From Mesodorylaimus sp. YZB2_4 (taxonomy: Eukaryota; Nematoda; Enoplea; Dorylaimida; Dorylaimidae): a stretch of DNA of 64,000 nucleotides. Below are positions 4,988-60,629 of this stretch, one piece after another. A model generated the notes under the pieces. The model worked only from the letters and a program-made list of their open reading frames with translations. It did not search any database and was not told where the DNA came from. The DNA is taken from the NCBI GenBank assembly GCA_030248295.1, contig JASANH010000846.1, positions 124,001 to 188,000 on the forward strand, written 5' to 3'. The translations under genes were made by a program, and so were the position numbers. Positions within the stretch are counted from its first letter, which is position 1. Each line of letters opens with the position of its first letter.

Positions 4988-7808
4988 TTATTCCTGAAAT
5001 TCGATGTCAGACTGTCCGAAATTCGGCACTGTAACGAGCATCTGCTCTCCTGCCATTCTGCGACCACCACACGAACGATTCTGACGACGATGACCTAGAC
5101 GTTGACTGAGCGACAAAATAGCATCTGAAACAAAAAATATAAAACATTAAAAACCAACTGAGTTTCCCCAACTAACTGTTCATGCCTTCTTCAAATGCAA
5201 AATCGCCTTCCATCGGAACCGCCGCGCAGCTACCATCTTCGTCGCCTCGCATCCGTTTTGCGGGCAATTTCCTGCGCAAATCATTCGGCGGCAACGAACG
5301 CTTCGACGCCAAACGCAACCTCAAGTCATCTTGACCCAACCTTGACGAATCCTTAGCCACCAAGACACCCGACCCATTTTCGTAGAAGCATCGACGACTA
5401 GCACGTTGACGATGTGGTCTATTCTTACCCTTCTTCGGCTGCCCTTTAAAAGGTGGATAGGAACCATGACGATTTGAATTCCGCTGGTTCTGATCGCCGA
5501 GACGTAATTTCGCTGAAATTTTAGGCTCGCCAACAAAAACTTCTTCTTCGTTTCCATCATCGAGATGATCTTCAGGTTGAGCAAACTCGTCATGCTCATT
5601 TTGGACAACCATTTCGTAATCGTCGCCTTCCCACCAGTTAATATCAGAATCATAAAAACCATGATTGTTCCAATTTCGCCGATTCTGATCACCGACTCGC
5701 AAATTAGCCGATAGCTTGGACTCGCCAATAAAAACTTCTTCGTTTCCATCCTCGAAATAATCTTCAGATTCATCAATCTCGACATGTTCATTTTGTGTAA
5801 ACGTATCGTAACCGCCACACTCTTCGACACTCTTGCTTCGGCCTTGTTCTTGTTTAGCATTTCTATTCTGCTCCCACGCAGCGACCGACCACGGCGCTCC
5901 GACTTCCTTCTTCTTCCACCACGGTGCCGTATCAACTTCATCGTTTTCTATGAAGATCGCAGTTTCTTCTGGCAATGGTTCAGGTTCCTTTTTGGCCGAA
6001 AGCCGTTCAAATATGGAACGTTGTTGCACAGACGAATCGTGCGCCCGATCGTCATTTAGATCAGACCATGGAAGATTGCAGACGACGTTGCTATAAGCAT
6101 ATAGGATTGGGTTGACTCGAAATAGTGCCGCTTGTAAAGGCAATGCTGGTTCCAGGCGCGGATATGTCGAGGGACTCACTCGAGCTGGCGTAACCGGCAT
6201 GTTCTGCTGAATATTCGTGTCCACAAATTGCCTGTCGTCAACAAGGCCAGATACCGAAGGAAATAAAAATGCAGGAAATGGTGATAGCGCTGGAGAATAT
6301 CTGGCAGTGATTGGAAATATTGGCGAAGGCGAAGACACTTTTGGCATCTCGAGAAGTAACGCTTTTTGAGCATCTTGATCAATCGATAAAGTCTCGACCG
6401 GACGACTTTGTTGAAGCTCAGGTACAGGAGACCTATCAATATGAGCTTGTGCCGATTTCATAGTTTGAATAGCCTGTTCACCCTTCAACGTCGCCTTTGT
6501 TCCTTGCAATTGTTTCAACATATCCATTAATTCGTTCACTGTTCCAGGATCAGAATTTCGAAGCAGTTTCTCCATTTCTAATAACGTCACTTTTCGGCTG
6601 TCCATCCGTGTCGACAAATCCCTTTCATGACCCCTTTCCGACGACTCATCATTTTGCCCTCGAGATTCTGCATATTCCACATCAAGGCCACATGCTTCCG
6701 CAATACTAGGACGAGGTTTTTTGGCCACATTAGCCACAGATGATAAATTCTTGCCATGATCTTCATCGAATTGATTTATTGAACGAGACGATTTGCATTT
6801 GATCGGTTGTTGACACAGCTTCGATGATTCCGATTTCGATTTCTTCGAGAGCACCCCTTCATCGGGCAGTTTCTTCGTGCGTTCAGTTGTTTGAAAACGA
6901 TCTTGTTGTTCGCGCTCTTTACGTCTGGTCGATAGGATGGTCTCGATCGTACGCAATCGCTCAACGTGTTCCTTCGGCGCCTTTCCGCCATTTAAAGTAA
7001 TAAGTTCCATCTCCTTTTGCAATAACGCACTGACCAATTTTTCCATCAGATCTTCATTCCGGTTGAATAGCGGCGGCGTCTGATCATGGGTTTGTTGAAT
7101 CGTGTTTTGCAAATCGGAGGTTCGAACTTTCGATTCCAATGCATTTTGCCTCGAGGACGTTGAAGTAGATGAGCTCACGATTGATTTATCTTTATTTATT
7201 TCGGCAGAAAAACCAGTCATTTTTGACTCTGGCGTCGTTACCTTCTCTTTTTCCGAAGATTCATCGCACGAAACAGAGGAGTCATTCGAATCATTAAAAT
7301 ATCTTTGAAAATCTCCCGTACAAACTCCCAAAACGTTCAATACCGAGTCAATACTCGGCGTGTCTGAAGATTCGTTCGATGACGGATCGGGAATGATTGG
7401 ACCTGACAAAATACTAGTAACGGCTGTGGCTGCTTTGCGCCAAGCTTTGTCGGCCTCTCGTTTCGTCATTTCCGACATCGTTAACGTCGAATTCGGTTTT
7501 CGTGTTTGACTCGATTCTGATCGTAGTTTCTTAGTACGCGACGAGTTCGTTTTAGATTTTGATTGATCCAAATCGTCGTTTTCCAATCGTCGCCGTGAAT
7601 TTTTAGGCGTATCGATTTGTTCACCGTTTCCACCAGGTTCTTCACACGAATGACTGTAGTTCTGACTGTAACTTTGATTTGATATTTTTTCCCCTGGTTG
7701 AGCGCCCTCGTCTGGCATCTTCCTTCGAAAATGACTCAATGCATTTATTTCATTTTTATCGATTTTTTGATCGGCGTTTAGCAATGTTGAAAATACCGAT
7801 TTGGACAT
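4988..7808 (-). CDS. Large low-complexity protein, possibly eIF4E-transporter (4E-T)-like
   Basis: Two exons on the minus strand: 7808-5177 and 5124-4988, split by a 52-nt intron (GTTAGT...TTTCAG). The splice avoids a stop 3 nt into the intron and adds about 42 residues ending at TAA 4988-4990, giving about 920 aa. The start is the ATG at 7808; the same frame closes upstream at about 7912. The protein is rich in S, K, E and Q. It contains an imperfect duplicated acidic segment near residues 690-800 (QNEH...E.YFEDGNEEVFIGE, later DDGNEEEVFVGEPK) and tryptophan pairs (PWWKKK, NWWEGDD). A stretch near residue 170 (IDSVLNVLG...GDFQRYFN) and a later SIFERLSAKKE resemble short conserved pieces of metazoan 4E-T (P-body mRNA repression). 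I see no N-terminal YxxxxL eIF4E-binding motif. The gene is real; its identity is tentative. Confidence 0.7.
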
Positions 7809-8601
7809 TCTTTCCACAATGAAAAAGGCATTCGTCGGAAAATGGCAGTTTCGGAGTTTGGAAGACGAATCAATCGACGATGAGATTGCATAGAAGACAA
7901 CGAACTAGCACCTGACGATGAGGGATGATGCAAATAGCAGAAATGATGGAACCAAAAAAAAACGAGAACAAAACAAATCAAATTCGGCCAGCCAAGCTCC
8001 GTGTTTCGGTGTTGTGCTCTGACCCAAAGCGGTAAAATTGAGATTCAGGCTAAGGTGGGATTGTCACCCCTTCTCGAGGCAAGAGCTGGCCTGCCCAGTG
8101 TTTGGAGTTGTGTAGAGGCTATTATCGCAATAAGATTATTTTCCTTTTGTAAATGAACAGTGTAGGAAAAACAGCGCAGAGGGTGGGACGAGACACAGAC
8201 AAGTTGGTCTGCAGTGGCAAAACAGACGGCACCAAAATTTTACCTGAATACCTCACCCCCATAAATGCAAGGGGGAAACTTGCGCACGATCTGTGAGAGC
8301 TGGGAGATGGCATGGTGTCATGATCGGTGAGAATAGCTCAAATATTGTGCTTTATAGCAAGGATTTGCTGGTAAGCGCATGAATGACGGGCAGTTACTCA
8401 TGGTCGAACTTTGTGCATTCTCGATCTGACTAAATCAGCCGTTTTTGACACAAGAAACTTTCGGCTTGGCTCCAGTATCGAGATCGAGACCCATCTTCCC
8501 ATCTGCCGCACAGCGTGGAGGTAGCCCCTGAAGAAGAACGGAGTCCACTCGTCGCCAGACCTTCCACGAGTCAGAAACTGTTATGTTTTCAAACGAGTTC
8601 C
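7809..8601. promoter_or_regulatory. Intergenic region between divergent genes
   Basis: This roughly 790-bp interval separates the start of the minus-strand low-complexity gene (ATG 7808) from the start of the PP1-like gene (ATG 8602). It probably holds both promoters and 5' UTRs. I cannot point to a convincing TATA or initiator element. Short open frames inside it have no family match. Confidence 0.4.
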
Positions 8602-10570: not shown

Positions 10571-12718
10571 AAGCAGAATTGCGACCATGGTAGCTGCTGT
10601 AGAATACTGCATGCAAATGAAGGACTGGTTAGACTTATCAATATCACTACATTGTCCCCTCTCCAGATACGCAAACGTCCCCGTATGCCTACATAATACA
10701 CATACAAAACTGCGTGCGAAAACAAATCACGAAGACTGGACGAGTTCGGCACCATGAGAACGGATTAAGTCGAGCACTCTGAGCGAACTGTGATGTCGCG
10801 CAGTGGTAACGGCGCCGGCAGGCTGTACCGCTCTGAATCAATACCACTGGGACCGAATGGCTGCCACTCCAACCGTCTGACCCGCTGCCGAACTAGTCTT
10901 GGAATCAGACCGGAAAGCTAAGAAACGTAAGCAAAACATTTGAAACCGAGGCATTGGCAAACCCGCCCAAAACAAGCACGCCGCCACCACGCAATGTGAA
11001 TGCTCGAACCGTCGGAACTGAGAAACAGTGAGCCGGACATTATCAAAATCTCGAAAGGTCCGTATGGCGAGAGATCTACATATACCCCTGATGAGCCCGT
11101 TGTAACAGCTCCTTCTCCTGGTGTGATAGGAAGTCGCCATCCATAGGAGGACGCCAAAAGGCTGGGAATTCGCCAAATCACTCTCGTCGGGTCCCGGTAA
11201 AGGTGGAAGAGTCCTAGCCACGTCAGGGATTGTTACAGGCGCTCCAGGGACCCAACCCGGTCGTAAATGCCGTTGACCACTCTGCATCGCCTCGCGTGCC
11301 AACGCCAACCTTGTACGGTGATCCACGACACGTGCACGATGAGAAGATGCGCCAGGGCCGCCTTCCATGCGTGAACTTCGACCTTCGAGTGTTAATAACA
11401 ACAGAAAAATTCGATTATGACCGTCACTGAAAGAAGAAGGTCGTCTTCCAATTCTGCCATAGCAACTATGATATTTTTCTTCTTTGACCGAATCAATATC
11501 ACTACAGCGTGACTGGCCCAACGATGGTTGGTGATCGTTGTCGCGTGATGTGCGGGGATGAAATAAAGTAATCGTCTTCGAAGATAGTAGGATAAGAAAG
11601 GTGCTGGTCCATTCTATTCAGATGTACAGTAGCTGCCTCAAATACGGAACAAGAAATCACCACGGCACACCGCTGATAGCTGATCCCGTAAGTGATCTAG
11701 AGATCGCTCGAGCGGTTTGTGATGTGCCCTCAACGTTGTTGAACAGTGTCTCGCACAATTAGTGTTCGTGTGTACCGATCTCAGTCCAGGATACCTGCGC
11801 ACGGTCAGGCACAACTTGAGACCCTCTGCAGTCCAGCCAAGTGGCCGTAATCTCCAGAGCGAATATTCGACAATGGTCATTTTGCATGGACGGATTCGAT
11901 CTTCGCTCATCCATAAAACTGCGAGGACCAACCCCAACCCCACCACCCAATTTATCAAGGATCAGCAGACTTGCTGACTGGAGCAGAGATGCCTATAACC
12001 TATTTTCTTTGAGAATATACACGCCCTCCACGTTACCGCATAGGCCGCGTGTACATTCTTAAAAACAGATAGTAGTTATCCTAGCCAGTCATCACCTTCA
12101 CATTTGCGAGTTCCGCCTATATGTTCCCCATCAGCTGAGGCCGTATTCCAGAAACTTGAAGGAAACTTCGAGGTAAAAAGAAAATTTTCCTTCAAGGCCA
12201 CTGTAACTTTTCTTCGAACTCAAAGATCTCTCGTAGTCCGACAGAACTTTCCAGAGACTTGACTTTGAAAGAGAACGCTGGCCTAGGAAGTAAGTCCTGC
12301 AGACTGGATTGCCTGAGTGTCTGAGGTCACACAGGAGGAAATGGAGGCTGAACAGTCGGAAGAAGATGATGTACGCTGGTCACTCATTTTTGTCGCTAAC
12401 TGTATATTTGAATGAGCATGCTGTGCCTTGGTCCTAACTAGTTTGTAGCAAAACTGGAAAACTGTCGGGGCGTCTAGCTAAGCGCCGGAGGCATCGGAAC
12501 TTCTTATGCCTCTCCTTACATTTATACAGAAAAAGCAGCTCCTGCTTCTGCTCGTTTCCTGGCTGCCATGGCTGCTTATTGCAGTGGCTGAGAAGACTAG
12601 CCATTGCTCGCCACAGTATGCATCGCCTGGTCTAAAAGTTTCTGGTCTGTGATTTTATTGCAGAGAAAAAACAATTTTATTGCGCCCCATACTAGTACAT
12701 GTGTCAAACAATGACACA
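10571..12718. other. Stretch without a recognisable gene
   Basis: The longest open frame, 227 codons on the minus strand ending at 10838, shows no domain, no signal peptide and no splice partner I can support. It may be chance or a decayed gene. I see nothing else of note. Confidence 0.5.
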
Positions 12719-14591
12719 CTACAAAAAGTCGAACATGGACTTTGTGTATCGTTCATTAACGAACGAAATAGGAAGGCCTTCTTTCGTTGAGACCGTGGCC
12801 TGGTGTTCGAGAATGCGATCAGGTATATCCAACGTCTGGTCACTCCTCGGGACTACACACTCCATTTCCCAACCGTAGGGTAATGGGCGCCAGAGAAAAT
12901 TGACCGAGTAGGTCTGACGGAATGGTTGGAACGGGGCCACCACCTTACCGAATGGAATGTTGGTTGTGTCCAAGGCCTCGTTCATCTCGGGCGTCAATCG
13001 ATCGGACACGTACCAGTTATCAGCCACTGATAACACCTTATCACCACAACTCAATTGCACACTCCGATATCGCACTGTCTCATTGGGCTTGGCACGAAGT
13101 AGTGATTGAGCCAGTGGTGGTGGAGCCGGGTCCTGCCCGACACCCATTTGTGTCGCCACCACTTTCGGCACGGAGGCCAGTTTATGATCGCGGCACCATT
13201 TCTCCAAGGTCATAGTAGCACTACTACTCGCCAGTAAGTCTCCGTTCAAGGTTTGCAGGAGTGCCTCGGCAGTCAATGCTTTTCGACCTACAGCATGGGG
13301 GCAGTCATCGACCTGATTCCCTGTGTTTCCTTCTTCTCTCCTCACACGCACATTAACTTTTGTCACCCGCAAGCCGTCAAAGGTCGATGGAGGAAGGGGG
13401 TCCTTGGAGCCCTGCAATACGCCAATGTCTTGCGAAGCTATGCACGTGTAAAATACGAAGGTTTGTGGGTCGGGCTGGCTTGGTGCCACTTGCAAGGAGA
13501 TGGTGAAGTTGTATGGCGACGACAGGTCGGAGGTAAGGGCGGCTGTGTCGTTGACCAAGTCAGAGTATTGGTAAGTGATGGGAGCTGTGCCCTGAAGAGG
13601 AGATGGGTTGTCAAGGGCGGCAAAGCACTGCGCTTTTACACAGGTGAATAGACTAATCGTACGTGCCTCAGCATGGCAGAAAGCAGCGTGGCTTTCCTCC
13701 TTATGTCCCCCCGCCTGAATGCGATCTCTCCTGATGCAGCTACGCCTGGCAGGCGCAGGAGAGTGCGAGTGACCAAAATCGGTGGGGCAAAAACTCCGAC
13801 TGTAGCAAGGCGAAGTCTTGCGACTATACCTGCGACTGAAACATCAACGCAAGGGGTTTCCAGCCAGGGGGAGATAAATAATTCTCTTTGACTAGCCATG
13901 GGCTTCCACGCAGTGAGGTTACGCCAAATATTCCCTCCCCTTCCCCCTGGTGACCAATGCTAAAAGATAAACAGGCCTTTGCAAGAAAAGTGTGCCTCTT
14001 ATCAATTTCTTGAGGTATCTGGGATAAATATCACACTTATCGCTGTGATAAAAGGGCGATTAAGTCGAAATGGTCTTGGCATAAGCCACATGTGAAATAT
14101 TTGCACATTTGACCAATATCAGGATATTAGATTCGATCTACAATAGCCCCATCGAATGCCCCTCCTCAGGTTGTTCCACACAGTATTTTCTAATCGTAAG
14201 AGGTGCGCAGCACCACAGTAGGCTTGGATATCCTAATCTGCACCGTCCACCTGTCAGTCGTAGCTCGCCCTAGGACAAGGGAAGACAAAACGAGAACTCA
14301 CGCTGCGAAGGAACAAGGCAGCGCACAATGGCCTCCTCCTGCACCAGGCTAACAGACACCCCGATCCTTCTCCCATCCACTTACCCTTTGGTACAACTTT
14401 ATCCACCTGACCGCATAGGGGGCCGTGCACTGCAATGCTACACTGTGCCCCTGGAGTACATCCAAACTGATATCCCTCCTGGACCCATTCACACTCGGTA
14501 CCACTAGTTGCTGGTCGTCGCATCGATTCACAGCACCATAGACCGAGAGTGACCATACTCCCAGAATGTACACGAGTCCGTACATGGTCAT
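12719..14591 (-). CDS. Secreted protein with Ig-like domain and bacterial-type chorismate-lyase-like domain
   Basis: Two-exon model: 14591-14385 and 13591-12719, phase 0, 359 aa. Exon 1 encodes a signal peptide (MTMYGLVYILGVWSLSVYG) and the start of an Ig-like fold (GHSVALQC...VRWIKLYQR). The donor is AGG|GTAAGT. Exon 2, after an acceptor with a good pyrimidine tract (CATCTCCTCTTCAG), continues the Ig fold with NFTISLQV, FVFYTCIAS and VTKVNVRV, which supports the join. From about residue 165 the protein reads like a bacterial UbiC/UTRA-superfamily (chorismate-lyase-fold) protein: LQTLNGDLLASSSATMTLEKW, then VQLSCGDKVLSVADNWYVS, RLTPEMNEALDTT, IPFGKVV, ILEHQATV and VNERYT. No hydrophobic anchor follows, so it is probably secreted. 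The intron carries a repeat at 13740-13920. An alternative short splice path (14340-14190) would end in a stop and drop the C-terminal domain; I think it less likely. The function is unknown; I do not claim lyase activity. Confidence 0.72.
13740..13920 (+). repeat. Interspersed repeat copy within intron
   Basis: It contains GGTGGGGCAAAAACTCCGACT, the motif CTGAAACATCAACGCAAGGG, and a tail with ATTCTCTTTGACTAGCCATGG. The same order of blocks appears at 44290-44450 and, more weakly, at 37604-37740 and 34815-34915. It lies inside the intron of the Ig/chorismate-lyase-like gene. The family is not one I can name. Confidence 0.7.
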
Positions 14592-26798: not shown

Positions 26799-27524
26799 AT
26801 GGCAACGAGCGAGGAGAGCAAGATTCAGGACTGGCTTAAAGTAGCCTTTCAAGAAGGTAGGTGTGAGCAGTGTGCTTTGGGGGAAGTCGAGACTGCCTTC
26901 GAAAAGACACGAGGACCCGCTCATATTATCTCATGCTAGCACACCCCTCGCAAACTTACCTTCCTGCTTCTCAAAATTGTCTTTTTTTTAGCGGAAAAGG
27001 GCGTTCTAAACGGAGGCAAACCATTCGGAGCAGTTGTCGTGAAGGACGAAAAGGTTGTCGGTCGGGGGCACGACGATGGACCCATATTCAAGGATCCAAC
27101 CAGACACGTAAGCAATCACACCTGCCCAAAGCCCTTGCATTCTATAGCTCTAATTCCAGGCCGAGGTCAACGCAATTCGCCAAGCTGCTGTAAGCGTCAA
27201 AGTACTGAGCTATCAGGCAGCACAGTCCCTCACTCTTTTTTGCAGGCAACCTTGGGCACAGCTAGTTTGCAAGGCTGCACTCTGTACAGCAGTTGCGAAC
27301 CGTGTCCAATGTGTTTCGGTGCTTCAGTATTCGCCCGCATCGACAGGGTCTACTTTGGACTGACCATGAAAGATGCTGACGAGTATGGATTCCTGGACGA
27401 CATTTGCCACTCGATGCTCTTGGATGACACTCGGCGAAGAGAGTACTGCCAACAAGCTCGAGCTGACGGAGCTATAACTGCCATGAAGATGTGGAAAGCT
27501 GGGAGCGAGGAGCGGAAGGCGTGA
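26799..27524 (+). CDS. CDA-fold deaminase, guanine/guanosine deaminase-like
   Basis: Four exons: 26799-26856, 26992-27107, 27160-27189 (only 30 nt), 27246-27524. They join in frame to 160 aa. Zinc-dependent deaminase motifs are complete. The H-A-E motif is split by intron 2 (RH|AEVNAIRQAA), and the second motif is SCEPCPMC. Flanking sequence (KPFGAVVV, GCTLYSSCEPCPMC, RVYFGLT..DADEYGFLDD) and the length resemble the bacterial GuaD guanine deaminase (about 156 aa) and plant guanosine deaminase more than cytidine, dCMP or ADAT2 enzymes. The likely reaction is hydrolytic deamination of guanine or guanosine to xanthine or xanthosine; a related base remains possible. No signal or targeting peptide is visible, so it is probably cytosolic. 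Confidence 0.85.
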
Positions 27525-57500: not shown

Positions 57501-60486
57501 TCACAAGGGCGTGCGGCACAGCACGTGAGCATTCTGGAACTGAGAATCGACAAAGTAGTAAGTTTTACCCGCGTAGCTGATCCAAGCCATCTCTCGCTTC
57601 AAGTTTCCTTTGCCCAACAGCTCGCCACGAAACGAGCCCTCACGAATATTATGCAAGACCATCGAATTGTACATGTCTTGCTCCACAGGCTGGTAACGGG
57701 AATTTAGTTCACTCACTCGAATCCAAACGTAGCGGAAGTTCTGTTTCGGTGGTCCACGATAGATGAGGATACGAAAGGAGGCAACCGAGGGTTGGGAACT
57801 AGTATACTCATCTTCACCCCATGGGAACGAAGCCTCCACTTTGCCCTTGTTATTTCGGGCACGACCGAAGACGGGTTCGTCATTGTGCATCCTACAAGAA
57901 TGTATCCATCAGGGCTATTTGAACTGATCACCTATTCGCGCTGAAACTCATGTTCGGCACTAGCCCATGCAACACTCACCACAAGGCCACATAACAGAGC
58001 CTAGTCGCCTGATCGTTGTTCGTCAAAGGATGACCCATGGCTTGAACAGCTCGTTGCGGGAATGGCGATCCGTGACGAACTTCGATCCATGCATCTTCGC
58101 CTGGAGTGACCGATGGCGGGCGCGGAGGGATTTGATACGACAGTGGCACGCGACATAGCACATGAGCCTTATCGAATTGCGAGTCCTCAAATCCGTATTC
58201 CTTGCCGGCGTAACCGACGTAGGCCTCCCGCCGATTCCAACATCCCTCTCCGAGGAGCTCACCACGGAAGTTTTCCTCGTGAATACCATGCACAACAACC
58301 GGACAGATCGTCTCTTGCTTTACAGGTTGATGCACAGAAGTCACCTGGTCAATCTGAATCCACTCGTATCGAAAATTCTGCGTGGGTGGCCCATAGTATA
58401 CGAGAATACGAAACGAAGGGGGAGACAACTGGGAGCTCGCGAATTCACTCCAGCCCCAATGAAACCATGCTTCCACTTTTCCATGATTATTTCGGGCGCG
58501 ACCAAAAACGGGCTCGTTAGGGTGTTTCCTGAAATGAAAGAGGCTATGATTTCGAGTGTGGCAGGCGGTCCTTATCCCATTACTTAACGCCATCGCATGA
58601 AAGTTAGGAAAAGCGAACTTCCTCAAAATACACAGCGGGCTTATCTCTGTACTAAGCAATGCCTATGCTTAGTGTGCCACCTCAAACTGACGTAGGAGCA
58701 GCCCCTCCCATCAACTACTACCTGACGCGGCCGCGGTGGTGCAGAAGTTCGGCATTCGTCCACCCGTATTGCCTGGGTTCGATCCTTGGTGATGGAGGTC
58801 GGTTTGCGAGCCATGAACCCTCACTGAGCGTGCACGCCAGGCTGTGGGGGCTCACCTGGTACCGTCGAGGCTATGAGGCTATGAGAGGCTATGATTTCGA
58901 GCGTGGCAGGCGGTCCTTATCCCATAACTTAACGCCATCGCATGAAAGTTAGGAAAAGCGAACTTCTTCAAAATACACAGCGGGCTTATCTCTGTACTAA
59001 GCAATGCCTATGCTTAGTGTGCCACCTCAAACTGACGTAGGAGCAGCCCCTCCCATCAACTACTACCTGACGCGGCCGCGGTGGTGCAGAAGTTCGGCAT
59101 TCGTCCACCCGTATTGCCTGGGTTCGATCCTTGGTGATGGAGGTCGGTTTGCGAGCCATGAACCCTCACTGAGCGTGCACGCCAGGCTGTGGGGGCTCAC
59201 CTGGTACCGTCGAGGCGCTCCGAGTGGAGAGACCGAAGCCCAACGAGGAGACTCTCGGCTGTCGAACAAGTGAAATAAGCGTAGCAACCCTACATTAGAA
59301 AAGATACCGCGGGGAGCGGATACGTTCAGACCTCCTTCCAGGCAGGTCACCTAGTCCTAGGTGCCTGAAACATCAACCCGACGGGTTTCAGCCTCACCTG
59401 GAGGAGCGTATCGACTGGCCAACGAAGGCAAGCCAATACGCTGCTTCGCGTATAAGGCGGCTAATCAAGGCAACCAGATACACTACCTTCTCCACAGGCC
59501 AAACCCACCTACTACACAAGGACAGAATTCAAAGCCCACAGACATCGTCCAAGAAAGTCAGTGCCCAGTCCAGGATGCCCTCGCGTAAAGGTGTTCCTAG
59601 TGAAGACATGCAGAGGGACTCTGCTGTGTGTGCTGGCCGGCTATAGACAAAACACATGCTATATAACGCAAAAATTAAGAAAAAAAACTACCACCTAACT
59701 CCGCTGCAAAATGCTGACTGATGCATCATCCAAGTCATTTTTGAACAGGACTAAGTTCTGCTCACTCTACAAGTTGTTGACTCGCAGTTGACCTGGCCCT
59801 GACCTGTCCGCACGAAAGCAAGCAAGGCTTGTACTTGGGCTGTCCTAACGAGCTGACTTGTCCCGACTTTTATGCGACTGGCCCATGCCCCACATTTGTC
59901 TGTCTCTGCCATCTTATGGACTACTTACCATAAGGCCACGAAGCATATCTTTGTCGCAGGATCGCTGTTCTCCAGCGGACGACCTATGGTTTGCACAGCC
60001 TGCTCAGGAAACACCGATCCATGGCAGACTTCTACCCATGCGTCCTCACCAGAGGCGAGGGCCAACGACGGGTGGGGCGGAAGTTGGAGCGATGATGACT
60101 GCAAACGGCACAACACATGAGCATTGTCGAATTGCGGGCCAACAAAGTTGTACTCCTTTCCAGCATGACTGATCCAGGCCATACGACGCCACAGATTTCC
60201 TTTGCCCAACAGTTCGCCATGGAAACTTGGCAAGTGAACATCATGCACAACCATAGGACTGTATTCGCCTCGACTGACGGGCTCGCTCATCGAGTGTACC
60301 TGGTTGACTGGAATCCAGACGTAGCGGAAATTCTGCTTAGGCGACCCGTTGTAGACAAGAATGTGATAATACGACAAAGGCGAGAAACCAGAGCTGGAGA
60401 ACTCCTTGCCGCCCCACGGAAACCATGCATCAACTTTAGCGTGCTTTCCTCGGGCTCGACCGAAAACGGGCTCGCCTTCGTGCGTC
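57501..60486 (-). CDS. DM9-repeat (DUF3421) protein, at least three repeats
   Basis: Three phase-matched exons on the minus strand: 60486-59929, 58528-57980 and 57891-57501 (stop TGA). Each exon starts with EPVFGRAR (exon 3: NDEPVFGRARNNKGKVEASF), continues through QNFRYVWI, FRGELLGKGN, AWISYAGKEY and NAHVLCR, and all but the last end with DAWVEV.HG..FP..AVQ......CYVALW, where the next intron begins inside the Trp codon. This matches DM9/DUF3421 architecture (W.....G..P..A...G......YV.RA......GKV), known in insects, molluscs and other invertebrates; some members are mannose-binding or stress/immune proteins. Exon ends at identical codon positions show growth by exon duplication. No signal peptide is visible in these exons, so the 5' end lies upstream, probably beyond the partial repeat at 60630-60750. 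Confidence 0.85.
58541..59218. repeat. 345-bp tandem duplication within a DM9-gene intron
   Basis: The sequence from 58541 (AGGCTATGATTTCGAG) repeats from 58886 at an offset of exactly 345 bp. Only a handful of substitutions appear by eye (for example GAGTGTGG/GAGCGTGG and CCCATTACTT/CCCATAACTT). The unit includes intron sequence next to exon 2 plus the first half of a SINE. The junction at about 58868-58890 carries small GAGGCTATGA repeats. Confidence 0.93.
59073..59420 (+). repeat. tRNA-derived SINE, main family, fullest plus-strand copy
   Basis: The head GCGGCCGCGGTGGTGCAGAAG (A-box-like) and GGGTTCGATCCTTGG (B box) lead into GAGGTCGGTTTGCGAGCCATG, GCTCCGAGTGGAGAGACC, GATACCGCGGGGAGCGG and the core CTGAAACATCAACCCGACGG. 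The first half also occurs in the duplicated copy at 58728-58870. It gives the orientation for all other copies in the window. Confidence 0.8.
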
Positions 60487-60629
60487 CTGCAAAACCATAG
60501 CTTTTACTGTATAGTGCGAGAGCTTAGCCAAAAAGGCGCATGCGCCATCTTACCAACGCTCTCCTTTTAACAACTTTCTCAATAACTAATCCAGACCCCA
60601 CTCCAGTAGGCAATTTGTTTTGGACTCAC

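Follow-up and report, generated by a model that had tools for sequence, protein, structure and literature searches.

The locus and its gene model

The stretch of DNA considered here (the window; 64,000 nucleotides, contig positions 124001-188000 of JASANH010000846.1) belongs to the 145 Mb assembly of the nematode Mesodorylaimus sp. YZB2_4. It carries on its minus strand a gene whose C-terminal domain has bacterial kinship and, in the modelled structure, a chorismate-lyase fold. In the gene structure proposed below, this domain would follow a secretion signal and a probable immunoglobulin (Ig)-like segment.

The domain lies within an open reading frame (ORF), 12719-13843 (-), which runs for 374 codons without a stop. 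A long intron-free exon had been put forward as a distinguishing mark of the gene, and the open frame agrees with the first part of this claim; the second does not hold, since frame 5175-7904 (-), without a Pfam match at E up to 0.1, extends over 910 open codons, such that length is not peculiar to the gene under study. The first methionine of the frame, in the motif SATM, falls within the conserved domain and has no other ahead of it. For the domain to be complete, an exon further upstream is thus required. One is offered by a join at 14385/13591, which reads CAAAGG/GTAAGTGG...CATCTCCTCTTCAG/GGCACAG (slashes mark the exon borders), keeps phase 0 and gives a product of 359 amino acids. Both the donor and the acceptor (CTCCTCTTCAG/GG) are of good form. 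Among the joins tried near that of the initial annotation (two starts, nine donor places and three acceptor places around 14385/13591), it is the sole one printed with both GT and AG. The features of the gene are as follows.

14385..14591, minus strand: proposed exon 1, with a signal-peptide-like start and the first half of the Ig-like region; donor CAAAGG/GTAAGTGG
13592..14384, minus strand: proposed intron, 793 bp, GT...AG, phase 0
13301..13591, minus strand: first part of exon 2, with the rest of the Ig-like region plus a linker; Ig matches are weak and appear only when the two exons are joined
12722..13300, minus strand: second part of exon 2, the domain of bacterial origin with modelled chorismate-lyase fold, 193 codons
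12719..12721, minus strand: stop codon, end of the ORF
12654..12681, minus strand: two AATAAA polyadenylation-type signals 3' of the stop codon, first bases 12681 and 12659

Searches of the assembly with exon 2 and with the N-terminal part found no paralogue apart from the locus itself. The SL1 leader was not found with up to two mismatches allowed, and SL2 (RF00199) gave no match, nor did its controls.

Bacterial kinship of the C-terminal domain

The similarity of the domain to bacterial proteins is far above chance. With tblastn and a limit of E 1, 193 plasmid records match, every one from a rhizobial or kindred genus and the best at 50% identity (E 2e-47), and a collection of bacterial and archaeal genomes holds 479 stretches encoding relatives. 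The best 80 of these 479 were retained, so the tree described below is weighted to close relatives; the top two among them come from metagenome-assembled genomes (MAGs) of Parvibaculaceae (L009, 57% identity) and Hyphomicrobiales (L010, 56%). Weak plasmid matches beyond the rhizobial kin (two in Alteromonas, one in Thioclava) appeared only at E up to 10 and were not used. A phage route finds no support, with no phage record matching the domain at E up to 1 and none of 14 pattern matches in viral contigs confirmed.

The tree comprises 86 rows, that is, the window domain and 87 bacterial loci (80 from genomes, seven from plasmids) less two identical rows, with bacterial relatives as the only comparison. 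Within it, the window domain clusters with the two alphaproteobacterial rows L009 and L010 (support 100/96) and nests in a set of 34 rows (100/99), at the end of a long terminal branch (0.78). The bacterial origin of the C-terminal part, as the initial annotation had proposed, is thus upheld by the plasmid and genome matches and by this nesting. Of the outcomes that it had named as refuting, none arose in the checks made.

An alignment of the window domain with 43 of the 80 genome loci (44 rows) has 41 columns that are invariant in the bacterial rows, and the window domain retains 39 of them. In simple neutral simulations starting from L009, an open frame together with at least 39 kept columns was seen in none of 2000 runs at 57% identity and in none of 2000 at 75%, rising to 22 of 2000 at 85%. 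The simulation and the conserved columns together argue that the domain has probably been long resident in the host and under selection, although some of its divergence may predate the transfer. Part of the conservation could stem from an unsampled bacterial lineage before transfer, and, the comparison having covered bacteria, archaea, plasmids and phages, there may be another eukaryotic carrier.

Residence in the nematode genome

The gene resides in a host contig, at 136.7-138.6 kb within 559,844 bases. Three frames in the window match MFP2b, a nematode sperm motility family which also matches six stretches across the genome. The animal setting given to the gene in the initial annotation is borne out by the large contig, by these frames and by the Motile_Sperm matches of the genome. 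GC content at third codon positions (GC3) is 0.56 in the domain, slightly above that of five host frames (0.41-0.55) and far below that of six bacterial relatives (0.73-0.87), all of the compared frames being hand-picked.

These observations bear on whether bacterial contamination or an assembly chimera might explain the domain. Its single copy in the assembly speaks for such an explanation. Against it stand the place of the gene within a 560-kb contig alongside nematode-type genes, a GC3 lower than in the bacterial relatives, the AATAAA signals and the splice acceptor, and the fact that the closest bacterial match, among the best 80 of 479, reaches only 57%. Contamination is accordingly regarded as highly improbable and was rejected on contig position and GC3.

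Several further features of the window and genome may be recorded here. The three MFP2b frames are clustered at 57504-60503 (-), and one also matches DM9, below the cut-off; between them lie frames 58656-58949 and 59001-59270 (+), a direct repeat whose first ~70 residues are identical. Frame 26940-27521 (+) matches MafB19-like and cytidine deaminase families. Motile_Sperm has 102 matches in the genome, many of them equal in score, which points to a large family. Under mitochondrial code 5, one COX1 frame is open over 523 residues; there are 15 COX1 matches, in both orientations (contigs C73, C273, C741, C47 and others; L089-L091), some with internal TAA or TAG, and repeated mitochondrial DNA and nuclear copies are both possible sources of them.

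The N-terminal region

Proposed exon 1 begins in the manner of a signal peptide, its best hydrophobic 10-mer having a mean Kyte-Doolittle (KD) value of 2.09, in keeping with the animal-type secretion start that had been claimed for it. The joined protein has four N-glycosylation sequons and seven cysteines, two of which are the pair invariant in the bacterial family, and it shows no later membrane-like span. The joined product would, from these features, be a soluble secreted protein.

An Ig fold had also been assigned to this region. The Ig_3 profile of Pfam matches the joined N-terminus over positions 2-77 of 78 (14.3 bits, E 0.061), with no Pfam match to exon 2 or to the exon-1 frame by itself. 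A PDB search with a limit of E 10 gave 11 matches, of which seven are antibody light chains, the top one being the light chain of an antigen-binding fragment (Fab; E 0.14, residues 42-120), and Cys 55 and Cys 119 of the joined protein agree with Ig spacing. Other details count against the assignment: the Ig_3 score is below the Pfam cut-off of 30, three of the 11 PDB matches are non-Ig proteins, and in the best Fab alignment a leucine occupies the place of the core tryptophan, a tryptophan sitting three residues earlier. In other words, the near-complete profile span stands in favour of the earlier assignment while the scores, both for Ig_3 and for the Fab light chains, are weak, and an Ig-like segment in the N-terminal part is likely but unproven.

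It may be, therefore, that the domain is bacterial and host-resident as described, but that exon 1 is non-Ig or foreign to the gene, which would make the gene a copy of a bacterial protein with another first exon. The weak Ig scores would fit this, as would GC3, which at 0.64 in exon 1 and 0.63 in the Ig half is unlike, and higher than, that of the five host frames taken; moreover, the join is predicted from sequence, the joins tried being those around 14385/13591. Such an arrangement seems unlikely, though not negligibly so, given the well-formed donor and acceptor in phase 0, the signal-peptide-like start of the joined exon, and the fact that Ig_3 matches the joined sequence but neither exon frame alone.

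Fold and superfamily membership

The modelled domain has the three-dimensional fold of the chorismate-lyase superfamily, structural comparison serving as a second look at the ranking given by Foldseek. The profile searches and this structural match support the placement in the UbiC/UTRA superfamily made in the initial annotation. Several results weigh against a close tie to any one family within it. Searched with the window domain, neither Pfam nor NCBIfam gave a match, and the bacterial members give marginal matches only.

UbiC chorismate lyase (PF04345, PDB 1fw9) is cytosolic, whereas the window protein is of secreted type. PF04345 is unlisted for any of the 44 alignment rows; the family profile finds nothing significant against a single Escherichia coli UbiC, and against three UbiC sequences the hhalign probability is just 4.3%. 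At the level of residues, R79 of the 193-residue domain, identical in all 44 rows, aligns to UbiC Arg76 in a local profile alignment. E183 pairs with UbiC Glu155 only in a global alignment that is non-significant (E 0.23); in the structural match, whose alignment ends at residues 192 and 164, respectively, each of the two glutamates lies nine positions ahead of that end, if the stretch between is ungapped.

For the UTRA domain of GntR/HutC regulators (PF07702), marginal matches occur in 15 of the 44 rows, the window row not among them. A local alignment of the family profile to 16 UTRA sequences (score 22.8, E 0.0056, probability 6.5%) pairs domain residues 58-101 with the C-terminal end of UTRA, a non-equivalent part. 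Unlike these regulators, the window protein is of secreted type, and no Pfam domain, a GntR-type DNA-binding domain included, was found on its exon. The DUF98/Rv2949c-like chorismate pyruvate-lyases (PF01947) differ too: PDB 2nwi matches the family profile at E 4.2e-4, identity is 19%, and PF01947 matches are marginal, in eight of the 44 rows (best E 0.011), again without the window row.

The probably secreted bacterial family

The closest likeness is to an unnamed, probably secreted bacterial family, which resembles the window protein over the whole domain (41-57% identity), the Cys pair, the Arg and the Glu being conserved. Its annotated members are of 222-269 amino acids (for example WP_010974912 of pTiC58 and L009). 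In these members the domain is preceded by a short signal-type N-terminus; in the nematode protein the N-terminal region is longer and is proposed to span an intron. A hydrophobic stretch precedes the domain in 80 of 87 bacterial proteins, with starts picked by rule and the same hydrophobic value attained in the domain part of 14 of the 87; it follows that the family is probably secreted or periplasmic.

Gene neighbours across 80 bacterial loci are not widely conserved and give no functional hint. No neighbour family occurs in more than 12 of the 80 loci, if one sets apart a heterogeneous cluster of 44 reverse-strand ORFs from 30 loci, of which 21 ORFs overlie the gene itself; another ORF was picked in place of the gene's own in 21 of the 80 loci. 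Most neighbour families are confined to one kin group. Three among the 25 largest clusters span wide kin: ten Rhodanobacteraceae with one Acidobacteriota, four Dyella with one Acidobacteriota, and three Ancylobacter with one Rhodospirillaceae and one Methylococcus. PF04345 matches were found in two of 12 bacterial carriers examined (the genomes of L015, L017, L035, L037, L041, L049, L057, L061, L071, L075, L077 and L079), a result that speaks neither for a replacement role nor against one.

The relative on pTiC58, ATU_RS23770 (L092:7408-8118; NC_003065.3), lies near tzs and virA on the Ti plasmid and, by its position, is probably atu6162. One paper names atu6162 as suggested for the vir regulon, and another reports it as up-regulated on virulence induction (PMC6546132, PMC6629968). 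By homology, this protein should have the chorismate-lyase fold modelled here.

Origin and possible function

We consider it likely that the domain was acquired from an alphaproteobacterium and captured behind a nematode secretion exon, probably with an Ig-like segment. A nematode ancestor would have acquired, directly or via another organism, an alphaproteobacterial gene (perhaps of Hyphomicrobiales) for a small secreted, periplasmic chorismate-lyase-fold protein. The bacterial signal peptide would then have been replaced, such that the domain became the 3' end of a nematode gene in which proposed exon 1 supplies the signal peptide, and which probably also bears the Ig-like segment.

As to what the product does, the conserved pocket, which would contain the invariant R79 and E183, argues for the binding of a small aromatic carboxylate. 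This ligand may come from microbes or plants and belong to the chorismate or hydroxybenzoate kind. The Ig-like part may anchor the domain to a partner protein or surface, the whole acting as a secreted scavenger or sensor. This mechanism is offered tentatively, at somewhat less than even likelihood.

Alternatively, the protein could be a secreted enzyme, a true chorismate pyruvate-lyase which converts chorismate to 4-hydroxybenzoate and pyruvate outside the cell, the gut lumen or a food organism being examples of such a place. It would then parallel the chorismate mutases of plant-parasitic nematodes which, in the titles and abstract openings of the open literature, are likewise nematode proteins of bacterial origin with chorismate chemistry. 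We judge an enzyme improbable. Chorismate is a cytosolic intermediate, whereas most of the bacterial relatives have a hydrophobic stretch ahead of the domain; an extracellular place thus argues against chorismate as an everyday substrate, and a secreted binding protein is favoured over an enzyme for this reason. PF04345 itself is unmatched. The mutases are of another fold and reaction; their family (CM_2) is, like GH12, without a match in this genome with controls positive. Pectate lyase was not found either, though no control gave a signal; in all three cases, an exon-by-exon search can miss split genes.

Significance

Nematodes are known to have acquired genes from bacteria, often for enzymes that act on plants. 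The present case would be a transfer of this known kind. In the titles and abstract openings of the open literature, no mention was seen of the domain family, of its pairing with a secreted, probably Ig-like N-terminus or of its presence in a nematode, in line with the initial annotation, which knew of no described protein with this pairing. An animal secretion exon seems here to have gained a secreted bacterial domain whose chorismate-lyase-type pocket is apparently intact, and the host nematode shows neither of the plant-parasite families checked against positive controls (GH12 and CM_2). A further point of interest is the unnamed bacterial family, which numbers hundreds of proteins and includes one from the Ti plasmid vir region. 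That the protein represents a secreted animal recognition molecule of a new class, combining an Ig-like domain with a bacterial small-molecule pocket, is a doubtful prospect; if true, the nematode could use such a molecule to detect or bind up an aromatic metabolite characteristic of certain bacteria or plants.
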